The notes below the pieces were generated by a model, which saw nothing but the letters and a program-made list of their open reading frames with translations, had not been told where the DNA came from and ran no database searches. Of a stretch of DNA of 5,069 bases, positions 599 to 5,054 are shown one piece after another. The stretch lies in NCBI GenBank assembly GCA_900313295.1, contig OMQS01000039.1, forward strand, positions 1 to 5,069. Reading direction: 5' to 3'. The translations under genes and the position numbers were made by a program. Positions within the stretch are counted from its first letter, which is position 1, and the number at the start of each line of letters is the position of its first letter. The stretch comes from an uncultured Eubacteriales bacterium. GTDB lineage: Bacteria; Bacillota; Clostridia; Oscillospirales; Oscillospiraceae.

Positions 599-766
599 TC
601 AGGCGTAGTGCTTCAGACCCTGCGCCATGGATGAGGCGGTACAGCGGCGGGCATAGCAGGAGAGCGTATCATGTTTCTCTCCGCCGCACCGGGTGGCTGC
701 TATCAGCGCGGCCAGTCTCCGCTTGCGGGGGACTAAGGGAGTATCCTGTTTCATTTGCTTTGCCAT
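599..766 (-). CDS. Small basic hypothetical protein (55 aa), minus strand
   Basis: I do not recognise this protein. A longer frame runs up to 832, but the start at 766 is preferred because a good Shine-Dalgarno (GGAGGT, complement of 774-779) lies seven bases upstream of that ATG; the upstream ATGs have none. The product starts MAKQMKQD, is rich in Arg and Lys (PRKRR at about residues 13-17), has three cysteines (28, 38, 44), and lacks a signal peptide or membrane segment. A possible -10 on the minus strand is TATGAT (complement of 798-803), without a convincing -35. It is the only minus-strand candidate gene here and is divergent from the pucR-like gene. It could be a real small protein, a remnant, or chance; the ribosome binding site is the main argument for it. 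Confidence 0.45.
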   Translation of the reverse strand: MAKQMKQDTPLVPRKRRLAALIAATRCGGEKHDTLSCYARRCTASSMAQGLKHYA

Positions 767-857
767 GGAATATACCTCCGTTCGTTTTACTACCGCTATC
801 ATAAAACAACGGACGGTCTGTTCCATTGGCAAAAATAAATGAACATTTCTATGAAAA

Positions 858-2074: not shown

Positions 2075-2727
2075 ATGGATAAGAGCAGGACGAGCGGTGA
2101 ATGGGAACGGATGGTGTCGGGGCAGCTCTATACGCCTGTCGATCCGGAGATTGCCAAGAGGCACCGTGTTGGTATGCGCCGCTGTGACCGGTTCAACCGC
2201 CTCCCGCTGTGGTGCGCAAAGACCAAACAGCGTGCGCTGGAGCGCCTGATCCCCCCGCAGAAGGAAAGAATTTCGAGGCGTTTGCACCCTTTTACTGCGA
2301 GTACGGCGTGAATATTTATGTGGGGCGGAACTGCTTCGTCAACTACAACAGCGTATTTCTGGATGTAGCGCCCATTACGCTGGGGGACAATGTACTCATT
2401 GGACCCAATGTGACGCTGGCCACGCCCAACCATCCGTTTATCGCCGAAGAACGAGCCTATACAGACTACCCCAACGGCTGCCATGCGTTGGAGTATGCCG
2501 AACCCATCACCACCGGGGATCACTGCTGGCTGTGCGCCGGTGCGACGGTGTGCGGTGGCGTGACCATCGGAGCGGGAAGCATCATCGCCGCCGGCGCGGT
2601 GGTGACGCGTGACATCCCACCCAACAGCATTGCCGCCGGCGTACCCGCCAAGGTGCTGCGGCAGATCAGCGAGAGCGACCGCATACATGTGTGGGAAAAG
2701 TATATAAAAAACAAGCCTCCACGCTAA
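2075..2727 (+). pseudogene. Maltose/galactoside-type O-acetyltransferase, split by a -1 frameshift at a C6 run
   Basis: The gene starts at ATG 2075 with AAAGGAG (2059-2065), which overlaps the preceding stop codon. The first part, 61 codons to about 2257, is the N-terminal Mac domain (EWERMVSGQLYTPVDPEI, then RRCDRFNRL). The homologous continuation (GKNFEAFAPFYCEYGVNIYVG, then LDVAPITLGDNVLIGPNV) is in another frame, open as 2209-2727. The frames join at six C (2251-2256): one extra C would give IPPAEGKNF and a 217-aa product. As written, the initial frame stops at 2309-2311. The second part carries the left-handed beta-helix hexapeptide repeats and the expected catalytic histidine (ATPNHPF), so acetyl-CoA-dependent acetylation of a sugar hydroxyl would be expected if intact. 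Substrate is unknown. The cause may be true mutation, phase variation, ribosomal slippage or a sequencing error. The rest looks undegraded, which favours a recent or artefactual change. Confidence 0.85.
2251..2256 (+). repeat. C6 homopolymer at the frameshift site
   Basis: Six consecutive C lie exactly where the acetyltransferase reading frame must shift by -1. In the starting frame the region reads ATC CCC CCG. A run of seven C would restore the full gene. The tract is short for classical phase variation. Confidence 0.7.
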
Positions 2728-3498: not shown

Positions 3499-4128
3499 AT
3501 GAAAAAGCAAAAAGTATCTGATGCCGTCATTCATCGTCTTCCCCGCTATTACCGCTATCTGGATGACCTTTATAATAAAGGCGTCGTGCGTATTTCCTCC
3601 AATTCCCTGGGCAGTAAAATGGACATCACCGCCTCCCAGATCCGCCAGGATCTGAGCTGCTTCGGTGAGTTCGGCCAGCAGGGATACGGGTACAATGTGG
3701 CCGAGCTACGCTCGGAGATCGGGCATATTCTGGGCATTGACAAAGGCCACCGCCTCATCATCATCGGCGTCGGCCATCTGGGTCATGCTCTGCTGCAGAA
3801 CTTTGATTTTGAAAAGGTCGGCTTCCATGTGGACACCGCCTTCGACATCTCTCCGGATCTCATCGGCACCAACATCCACGATGTCACCATCCGCTCCATG
3901 GACGAGCTGGAGCAGTATGTGGCGGAAAACCGCCCCAACGTGGCCGTGCTGACGGTGCCGCAGCATGTGGCGCAGCCCATGGCCAGCCGCCTCATCGACC
4001 TGGGCATCAAGGGCTTTTGGAACTTCACAAATGTGGAGCTGAGCACCGACGTGCCGGATGTTTTCTTTGAGGACGTGCATTTTGTGGACACGCTGCTGAC
4101 CTTGAGCTACCGCATCACCCGCCCCTGA
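3499..4128 (+). CDS. rex: Redox-sensing transcriptional repressor Rex
   Basis: Rex senses the NADH/NAD+ ratio: it binds operators when NADH is low and lets go when NADH binds, typically releasing fermentation and alternative-electron-acceptor genes. The 209-aa length is normal. Residues about 7-78 form the winged-helix DNA-binding domain (RLPRYYRYLDDLYNKGVVRI, then ITASQIRQDLSCFGEFGQQGYGYNV, 43-67). The Rossmann NAD(H) domain follows, with GVGHLGHA at 90-97 matching the GxGxxGxA dinucleotide motif. The C-terminus (FWNFTNVEL, then VHFVDTLLTLSYRI) is also Rex-like. The ATG is preceded by AAAGGA (3481-3486), 12 bases away, a rather long spacing, but no better start exists and the N-terminus aligns with family proteins. 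The gene has its own sigma-A promoter with a Rex-like operator on it. No hairpin terminator follows before the small Cys-rich gene, so some read-through is possible. Confidence 0.96.
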   Translation: MKKQKVSDAVIHRLPRYYRYLDDLYNKGVVRISSNSLGSKMDITASQIRQDLSCFGEFGQQGYGYNVAELRSEIGHILGIDKGHRLIIIGVGHLGHALLQNFDFEKVGFHVDTAFDISPDLIGTNIHDVTIRSMDELEQYVAENRPNVAVLTVPQHVAQPMASRLIDLGIKGFWNFTNVELSTDVPDVFFEDVHFVDTLLTLSYRITRP

Positions 4129-4153
4129 TGCACCTTTCTCTCCGACCGGCATA

Positions 4154-4193
4154 CTATGAAGTGAGGCCCGCGACACGGCCCCAAATTTCATAG
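4154..4193 (+). other. Nested inverted repeat running into the ribosome binding site of the Cys-rich gene
   Basis: CTATGAA (4154-4160) pairs perfectly with TTCATAG (4187-4193). Inside it, GGCC (4165-4168) can pair with GGCC (4177-4180), flanked by TG/CA pairs and one A-C mismatch. The last base of the outer stem is the first G of the GGGAGG ribosome binding site. In a read-through transcript from rex this structure could affect translation of the small gene. No T-run follows, so it is not a terminator. Function is inferred. Confidence 0.45.
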
Positions 4194-4205
4194 GGAGGTC
4201 ACAAT

Positions 4206-4334
4206 ATGTGCAATCAGGGGAATAGCTGCTGGATCATCATCTGCGTCATCATCCTGTTCCTGTTCTGCGGCAATGGCTGCGGTTGCGGCTGCGGCTGCAA
4301 CAACAACCAGAACAGCTGCGGCTGCGGCTGCTGA
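4206..4334 (+). CDS. 42-aa Cys/Gly-rich small membrane peptide
   Basis: The frame is short but well supported: GGGAGG (4193-4198) lies seven bases before ATG 4206, and a very strong terminator starts 16 bases after the stop. The peptide has three parts. Residues 1-8 (MCNQGNSC) form a short polar head. Residues 9-20 (WIIICVIILFLF) form a single hydrophobic segment, short for a full membrane span but enough for anchoring. Residues 21-42 form a tail of Gly-Cys repeats (GCGCGCGC, 24-31, and CGCGC, 38-42) with an Asn-rich middle. Eleven of 42 residues are cysteine. Similar short high-cysteine peptides in gut Clostridia are, from memory, sometimes labelled chorion-class high-cysteine proteins; small YjcZ-like sporulation peptides are another comparison. 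Neither can be confirmed here. Metal binding, disulfide cross-linking or a spore-coat role are possibilities only. No modification enzyme gene is nearby to suggest a RiPP. Confidence 0.75.
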   Translation: MCNQGNSCWIIICVIILFLFCGNGCGCGCGCNNNQNSCGCGC

Positions 4335-4350: not shown

Positions 4351-4390
4351 ATCCCCCCGTCCGACAGGACGGGGGGATTTCTTTCTTTTT
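4351..4390 (+). terminator. Strong intrinsic terminator after the Cys-rich gene
   Basis: A perfect 12-bp stem, ATCCCCCCGTCC (4351-4362) with GGACGGGGGGAT (4367-4378), has a GACA loop and is followed by a T-rich tail (4378-4391, interrupted by two C). It insulates the small gene from the Nudix gene. Confidence 0.93.
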
Positions 4391-4414: not shown

Positions 4415-4436
4415 ATATAAAAAGGAGGTGCTTTCC

Positions 4437-5054
4437 GTGGATCTCAGCGCCATTGAACGATACTATAGCCGCCATGTGCCCACGCTGCAGGAGGCTCGCA
4501 GCGAATACGCCGTTCTGCTCCCCCTGCTGCAAAAGCCGGACGGTCTGCACCTGCTGTATGAGATGCGCGCCTCCTCTCTGCAGCACCATCGCAGTGAGGT
4601 GTGCTTCCCCGGCGGCCGCATGGAACGCGGGGAAACTCCCGCCGCCTGCGCCCTGCGGGAAACATGGGAGGAGCTGGGCATCGCCCCCGACCGAATCCGG
4701 ATCTTCGGAGAAGCCGACTTTCTGCATCTGCGCTCCGAGTGCCTCATGCGTCCCGTGGTGGGTCTGCTCTCCGGCATTGAACCGGAAGCCCTCACCCTGA
4801 ACCCGCAGGAGGTCAGCAGCGTGTTCACCGTGCCCGTCAGCTGGCTCCGGCAGAACCCGCCGCAGGTCTACCGCTACCCCCTCAGGCCGGAGGTAGGCGA
4901 TGATTTTCCCTATCACCTCGTCCGCACGCCCAAGGACTATTCCTGGCTCCCCGGCAACATGGTGCTGCCGGTCTATGAGGGGCTTCCCTACCCCTTATGG
5001 GGTCTGACGGCGCGTATTACCATGCATTTTATTGAGGTTTATTCGGCTCTGTAA
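4437..5054 (+). CDS. Nudix hydrolase, CoA-pyrophosphatase type
   Basis: The protein (205 aa from GTG 4437) has a complete Nudix box GX5EX7REUXEEXGU at residues 60-82: GRMERGE, seven residues, then RETWEELGI, with the metal-binding glutamates in REXXEE. Just before it is the motif that marks the CoA-pyrophosphatase subgroup (UPF0035; LLYEMRASSLQHH, then SEVCFPGG). The late WGLTARI is also typical. The expected reaction is hydrolysis of CoA or a derivative to 3',5'-ADP and a phosphopantetheine product, in the cytoplasm; substrate is inferred from the motif, not proven. An upstream in-frame GTG at 4428 lies inside the AAGGAGGTG ribosome binding site (4422-4430) and cannot use it; GTG 4437 sits eight bases after AGGAGG and is preferred. 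The gene has its own extended -10 promoter and follows a strong terminator, so it is a separate unit from the Cys-rich gene. Confidence 0.9.
   Translation: MDLSAIERYYSRHVPTLQEARSEYAVLLPLLQKPDGLHLLYEMRASSLQHHRSEVCFPGGRMERGETPAACALRETWEELGIAPDRIRIFGEADFLHLRSECLMRPVVGLLSGIEPEALTLNPQEVSSVFTVPVSWLRQNPPQVYRYPLRPEVGDDFPYHLVRTPKDYSWLPGNMVLPVYEGLPYPLWGLTARITMHFIEVYSAL

Follow-up and report, generated by a model that had tools for sequence, protein, structure and literature searches.

A conserved small gene for a cysteine-rich peptide behind rex, with a sigma-K-type promoter and a putative spore-surface role

Directly downstream of a rex gene in an uncultured member of the Clostridia, a short reading frame encodes a peptide in which more than a quarter of the residues are cysteines. 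Is this frame a gene, when would it be expressed, and what might its product do? The window, by which we mean the whole stretch of DNA analysed (5,069 nt), is contig C75 of genome G000, a 77%-complete assembly of 1.39 Mb. The features on which the argument turns are as follows.

3499..4128, + strand: rex, encoding a redox-sensing repressor; neighbour on the upstream side, with possible read-through (NCBIfam NF003990, 275 bits, cut-off 233)
4132..4133, + strand: AC, core of a sigma-K-type -35, spaced 16 nt from the -10 (genus leader comparison)
4150..4157, + strand: CATACTAT, mother-cell sigma -10 (leader alignment; consensus from PMC3789822)
4154..4193, + strand: hairpin, outer arms 4154-4162 / 4185-4193, inner stem 4165-4168 / 4177-4180 (fold, covariation)
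4194..4198, + strand: Shine-Dalgarno GGAGG, ending 7 nt before the ATG (sequence; kept in relatives' leaders)
4206..4334, + strand: peptide gene, 42 aa, 11 Cys, ATG to TGA (sequence, genus conservation, predicted helix)
4351..4378, + strand: intrinsic terminator, 12-bp hairpin, for the peptide gene and rex read-through (hairpin scan)
4428..5054, + strand: NUDIX hydrolase, downstream neighbour (Pfam NUDIX, 4.9e-14)

The first-pass annotation, made from the letters alone, had described a 42-residue frame with 11 cysteines and a clear stop, preceded by a strong ribosome binding site. Both descriptions were borne out: the frame runs from ATG to TGA at 4206-4334, and GGAGG at 4194-4198 lies 7 nt from the ATG. 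The product has a short Cys/Asn head, a hydrophobic segment at about residues 8-21 and a Gly/Cys/Asn tail; AlphaFold2, run on the alignment, predicted a helix at residues 7-22, with low confidence for the tail (mean pLDDT 59).

Searching the genus with the peptide alone matched 26/32 genomes at E <= 10, and searching with the alignment matched 30/32 at E <= 0.01, paralogs included. A Cys-rich peptide of 40-62 aa is encoded in 26 of the 30 genus loci fetched, the window included, and is lacking from the other four. All 26 peptides begin with Met-Cys, contain a short hydrophobic segment and end in a Gly/Cys/Asn tail; M1, C2, W9, I11 and C38 are invariant among the 25 in our alignment, from which L015 was excluded for an ambiguous residue. 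A substitution pattern like that of noncoding DNA, which had been named as evidence against a gene, was not seen: the window and locus L002 differ at five codons, all synonymous and all at third positions, and the two proteins are identical. Across 14 core codons of 23 loci, compared in non-independent pairs, pN/pS was 0.40 in the frame vs 0.62-2.10 in the other five frames. A protein search with the peptide returned five relatives, and none of them was identical along its whole length. A chance open frame is favored by the ease with which GC-rich DNA produces GGC/TGC repeats and by the inflation of profile E-values through composition; that explanation is already contradicted by the start, hydrophobic segment and promoter kept across 26 loci with synonymous-biased change, and we consider it vanishingly improbable. 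A real, translated small gene is well supported by the genus-wide conserved frame, the Cys-rich make-up and the place after rex. We conclude that the ORF at 4206-4334 is a conserved small gene, so far without a name, that belongs to a widespread family; the function proposed below is putative. The original observation is confirmed; its interpretation is partly supported and is extended here by a sigma-K-type promoter, an overlapping hairpin, a paralog in the genome and a class-wide spread of such peptides.

With the genus profile, 122/250 genomes of the family (70/106 genera) matched at E <= 0.01 and 49/291 genomes of the class at E <= 0.001, E-values that are prone to composition. ORFs that are rich in Cys and carry a hydrophobic stretch were found in 25/26 fetched loci from other genera and in 26/29 from the class, sometimes two in tandem. 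Tandem Cys-rich mini-ORFs, in two types that differ slightly, were noted in L086, L088, L090, L091, L103, L106, L111 and others. G000 itself holds a second member on contig C125 (MCFDNNNCSCIWLIVILLLVFCCCGNG..), which is preceded by a CATACAAT box and adjoins a YceG-like gene; L015, L016 and L018 resemble this second type by eye.

Scans of Pfam and NCBIfam with the peptide, seven relatives and a 24-member alignment gave no match over a curated cut-off, and sub-cut-off matches (TatA/E 0.04, ODV-E18 0.12, late nodulin 0.0048, LptM 0.005) were set aside as composition. No solved structure matched the peptide. The few relatives named in database listings are each called 'hypothetical protein', and no paper describing the family, by title and abstract, was found within the literature library searched. 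The name 'chorion class high-cysteine' led to literature on silkmoth or insect chorion and was discarded. A small, Cys-rich product would also suit the precursor of a modified peptide (RiPP), its cysteines being the sites of thioether or similar changes. We regard this as very unlikely: no RiPP model matched, the window's annotated frames include no modifying enzyme or exporter, and the hydrophobic segment comes without a leader-core layout.

The first-pass annotation had proposed looking for conservation of the gene's place after rex, and this was found: rex lies directly upstream in 23 of the 26 peptide-coding genus loci, the remaining three not being beside rex. A NUDIX gene follows within the fetched stretch in 19/26, and a terminator-like hairpin stands 3' of the peptide gene in 23/23 rex-linked loci. 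In the gap that separates rex from the ORF, the hairpin scan found just one weak 6-bp terminator candidate (4112-4131), so transcripts reading through from rex would also end at 4351-4378. That terminator had been called strong and dedicated; the strong 12-bp hairpin is present, but 'dedicated' does not hold, since read-through from rex would use it too. No Rfam family matched anywhere in the window at the gathering score. Elsewhere in the window, an acetyltransferase-like gene at 2075-2727 (+) is apparently split over two frames, starting in the frame of ORF 1472-2311 and continuing with its hexapeptide part in ORF 2209-2727, and a small ORF at 599-832 (-), with an internal ATG after GGAGG, is a possible further short gene.

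This arrangement raises the reading that the peptide gene is simply cotranscribed with rex in growing cells, as the second member of an operon; its product, a small membrane protein, would then have a Rex-linked function in regulation or redox. Rex senses redox and the peptide is thiol-rich; the two genes adjoin in most genus loci, with no clear terminator between them and one shared behind them. The upstream region, however, argues against it.

Mother-cell sigma factors are described as recognizing a -10 of the CATA..AT type at a spacing of ~16-18 bp (PMC3789822), and the B. subtilis sigma-K motif as a 5-nt -35 and a 10-nt -10 separated by 14-16 nt (PMC517825). A promoter of the form AC-N16-CATA..AT sits between the rex stop and the ATG (G000:C75:4132-4157). 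Across 22 aligned genus leaders, the -10 is CATACTAT or CATACCAT, both of the mother-cell type, and an AC precedes CATA by exactly 16 nt in 21/22 of them, as it does in 6/7 leaders picked from other genera. ATA, by comparison, occurs at 13-21 nt in 0/22 genus leaders and at 12 nt in one.

The sigK leaders of the same genus provided the contrast. Twenty were taken (L135-L154, the first 20 genomes in score order; L145 is shortened by a contig end), and ATA-N17-CATA, the mark of sigma-E, was present in 19/20 when all were examined with CATA alone; the strict -10 places only 9/20, eight with ATA at 17 nt and two with AC at 16. AC-N16-CATA is also present in 4/20 of these sigK leaders, which counts against our preferred explanation. 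Since AC is fixed and ATA absent in the peptide leaders, we rejected sigma-E in place of sigma-K. In the sigK leaders themselves, ATA-N17-CATA mostly falls inside a well conserved CATAGGGAC(T/A)TTCC-like block, a sigma-E-type promoter.

We then counted a broader pattern, AC-N15..17-CATA..(AT or NTA), within 150 nt upstream of loci that had been chosen by protein profile and not by promoter. The count covered 26/26 genus loci, 25/26 from other genera (no ORF was found in L054) and 26/29 from the class (none was found in L094, L097 and L104). The pattern was present in 26/26 genus loci, 20/25 loci of other genera in the family and 16/26 class loci of other families. Control windows of the same loci gave 0/808, 1/828 and 2/758 (3/2394 in total), and mononucleotide shuffles gave 14/1300, 10/1250 and 28/1300, respectively. 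The bare pattern is not enriched in G000, with 13 matches vs 14 for the reversed control, and a search for co-regulated genes by that pattern was dropped on this count; 3/13 matches precede, by eye, an ORF with a ribosome site, one of them the peptide gene. The promoter evidence draws its strength from conservation. The paralog in G000 has the CATACAAT box with no AC at 15-17 nt, a further point against the preferred explanation. As a separate observation, nine loci from other genera with long leaders (L038, L040, L042, L044, L046, L048, L049, L057, L059) have a mother-cell-type -10 well over 100 nt before the start of the Cys-rich ORF, and several of these leaders end alike (..CAGCGGCAGAATGGAG), making them candidates for a structured leader RNA.

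A sigma-K-type promoter makes late mother-cell expression of the peptide gene likely. The same promoter speaks against the operon reading, as it is present in all 26 genus loci, including the three away from rex, and rex was not found within the stretch in most of the loci fetched from other genera and the class.

The -10 (4150-4157) is also part of an inverted repeat, which was considered as a putative Rex operator. It overlaps the outer 5' arm of a hairpin, and the opposite arm of this hairpin extends up to the Shine-Dalgarno element. The window leader with the full hairpin folds at -16.2 kcal/mol (z -2.1); for the short leader, which lacks the outer 5' arm, folding is not better than that of shuffled sequences (z 0.35). 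Covariation was examined in 22 of the 23 rex-linked leaders (L020 was dropped, its leader being as in L019) and in 7/26 leaders from other genera (L034 was dropped for want of a fitting -10). Other leaders that were folded form a like hairpin against the ribosome site, with L005 as an exception. The inner stem covaries: own arms pair at -9.2 kcal/mol vs -7.2 for arms swapped between species (p = 5e-5, the floor of the test), and we take this stem to be real. Covariation of the outer stem is weak within the genus (p = 0.08), and the p = 3e-4 reached with the seven leaders from other genera leans on those rows because they were picked by eye for likeness.

This overlap of promoter and hairpin suggests, as a good guess, a putative translational lock on the rex read-through mRNA. 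That mRNA alone would carry the whole hairpin and would translate the peptide poorly. A sigma-K transcript would lack the outer 5' arm because its start lies downstream of the -10, and its ribosome site would be open. The folding of the read-through leader against the ribosome site is a third point against a rex operon product of growing cells, which we judge improbable.

Late mother-cell expression presupposes the sigma factors of sporulation, and G000 encodes both: SigK matched NF004471 at 278.6 bits (cut-off 252; below the stricter TIGR02846 cut-off), and SigE matched NF006158 at 376.2 bits (cut-off 339). They carry arginine and glutamine, respectively (GISRSYVSR, GISQSYISR), reported as the specificity residues of the two sigma factors (PMC3789822). 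SigK-like sigma factors were found in 32/32 genus genomes, and SpoIVA in G000, in 27/32 genus genomes and in 206/250 family genomes. Within the family, SpoIVA accompanied a peptide match in 110/122 genomes vs 96/128 without a match (p = 0.0025), and in the better genomes only, 83/86 vs 62/74 (p = 0.007), both comparisons being confounded by completeness and kinship.

Two results count against the explanation that we prefer. YabG (PF05582), whose gene is described as the one specific sigma-K gene in the signature of sporulation (PMC10681294), is absent from 32/32 genus genomes, so its use as an internal sigma-K control was dropped. In genome G001, whose listed completeness is 100%, the peptide is found and SpoIVA has no match. 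The absence of YabG despite SigK-like factors in every genus genome and SpoIVA in most gives the picture of a reduced or unusual sporulation gene set. That the genus is Vescimonas is a guess; V. coprocola has been reported as non-spore-forming (PMC11334427), which is relevant only if that guess is right.

The explanation we favor, at a probability of roughly 0.58, is a sigma-K-driven, membrane-anchored, disulfide-forming mini-protein of the spore surface. It starts from what can be read in the DNA: a conserved frame, a Cys-rich make-up, a sigma-K-type promoter, a terminator, a place after rex, and genes for SigK, SigE and SpoIVA. The timing, location and disulfides of the peptide we infer. Sigma-K would activate the gene at a late stage in the mother cell, a step well supported by the sequence. 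Composition and timing suggest that the hydrophobic helix would then lodge in a membrane or pack in a coat layer, and that the Gly-Cys tail would be cross-linked by disulfides into the spore surface; the disulfides would perhaps form on exposure of the spore to oxygen, in line with a proposal for C. difficile CD1067 (PMC3738446). A helix of ~14-16 residues is short for a membrane span, and this counts against the explanation, as does the pLDDT of 59. The surface, coat or thiol-linked role suggested in the first-pass annotation becomes likely through the promoter, and it stands as a prediction.

Metal binding by the tail is the main rival. Here the peptide would be a membrane-anchored, metallothionein-like binder whose C-x-C tail chelates metal ions during sporulation and forms no disulfides. 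The promoter does not separate these two readings. C-x-C-type motifs bind soft metals, and the alternating Gly-Cys of the tail amounts to repeated C-x-C pairs. However, scans of Pfam and NCBIfam gave no match to a metallothionein model, and both tail length and Cys spacing differ between species, a variability more in keeping with loose cross-linking than with a fixed metal cluster. We consider the metal binder unlikely.

The sigma-K regulon is described as the least shared part of sporulation (PMC10681294), and the spore surface of uncultured gut Clostridia can therefore not simply be inferred from that of Bacillus or C. difficile. A recurring, recognizable sigma-K-linked peptide family would mark lineages in which the final sporulation stage may still operate, and would provide very small proteins to seek on their spores. 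A wider picture, which we hold tentatively and which may well prove wrong, is that sigma-K-driven 'thiol zipper' peptides of ~30-90 residues would armour the spores of gut Clostridia across the class, becoming disulfide-locked on leaving the anaerobic gut, while in this genus a promoter within a hairpin behind rex would stop the rex mRNA from making the peptide early. The promoter-in-hairpin layout offers a testable way to silence a stage-specific gene inside a housekeeping transcript.

Among known systems, the YjcZ family (TIGR01732, tiny_TM_bacill) likewise comprises tiny proteins with one hydrophobic segment. YjcZ proteins have a Gly-rich head like that of our peptide; a Cys-rich tail is not known as a YjcZ trait. 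Of the YjcZ-like traits, size and the single hydrophobic segment are seen in the peptide, and sigma-K control is indicated by the promoter only; yjcZ itself is in a B. subtilis sigma-K regulon list (PMC517825). The TIGR01732 model found nothing in G000 or in the peptide scans and passed its cut-off in 1/148 class genomes. The two are set apart by family model and description, YjcZ sequences for a profile comparison not having been found.

The likeness to the exosporium proteins CdeC and CdeM of C. difficile is one of putative role only; these are of 44.7 and 19.1 kDa and our peptide of ~4-5 kDa. CdeC (CD1067) is Cys-rich and sigma-K-regulated, and a disulfide-bonded arrangement around the spore has been proposed for it (PMC3738446, PMC9542656). 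Proteins with the cysteine-rich transmembrane module (CYSTM) are also small, Cys-rich membrane proteins (PMC10217909), a likeness of layout only; they are eukaryotic, and the peptides had no CYSTM match in the Pfam scans.

For the promoter-in-hairpin arrangement, the closest counterpart in our comparison is gene e (lysozyme) of phage T4, whose late promoter is described as occupying the 5' strand of an RNA helix, one formed exclusively by the longer mRNAs that arise from read-through (PMC3014915). The effect of that helix is given as 100-fold, with the ribosome site itself paired (PMC3014915). Whereas the T4 helix pairs the Shine-Dalgarno element or the AUG, the helix here ends at 4193 and the Shine-Dalgarno element begins at 4194. 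What the two share is a late promoter in the 5' arm of the hairpin, here with the -10 at 4150-4157 and the outer arm at 4154-4162.
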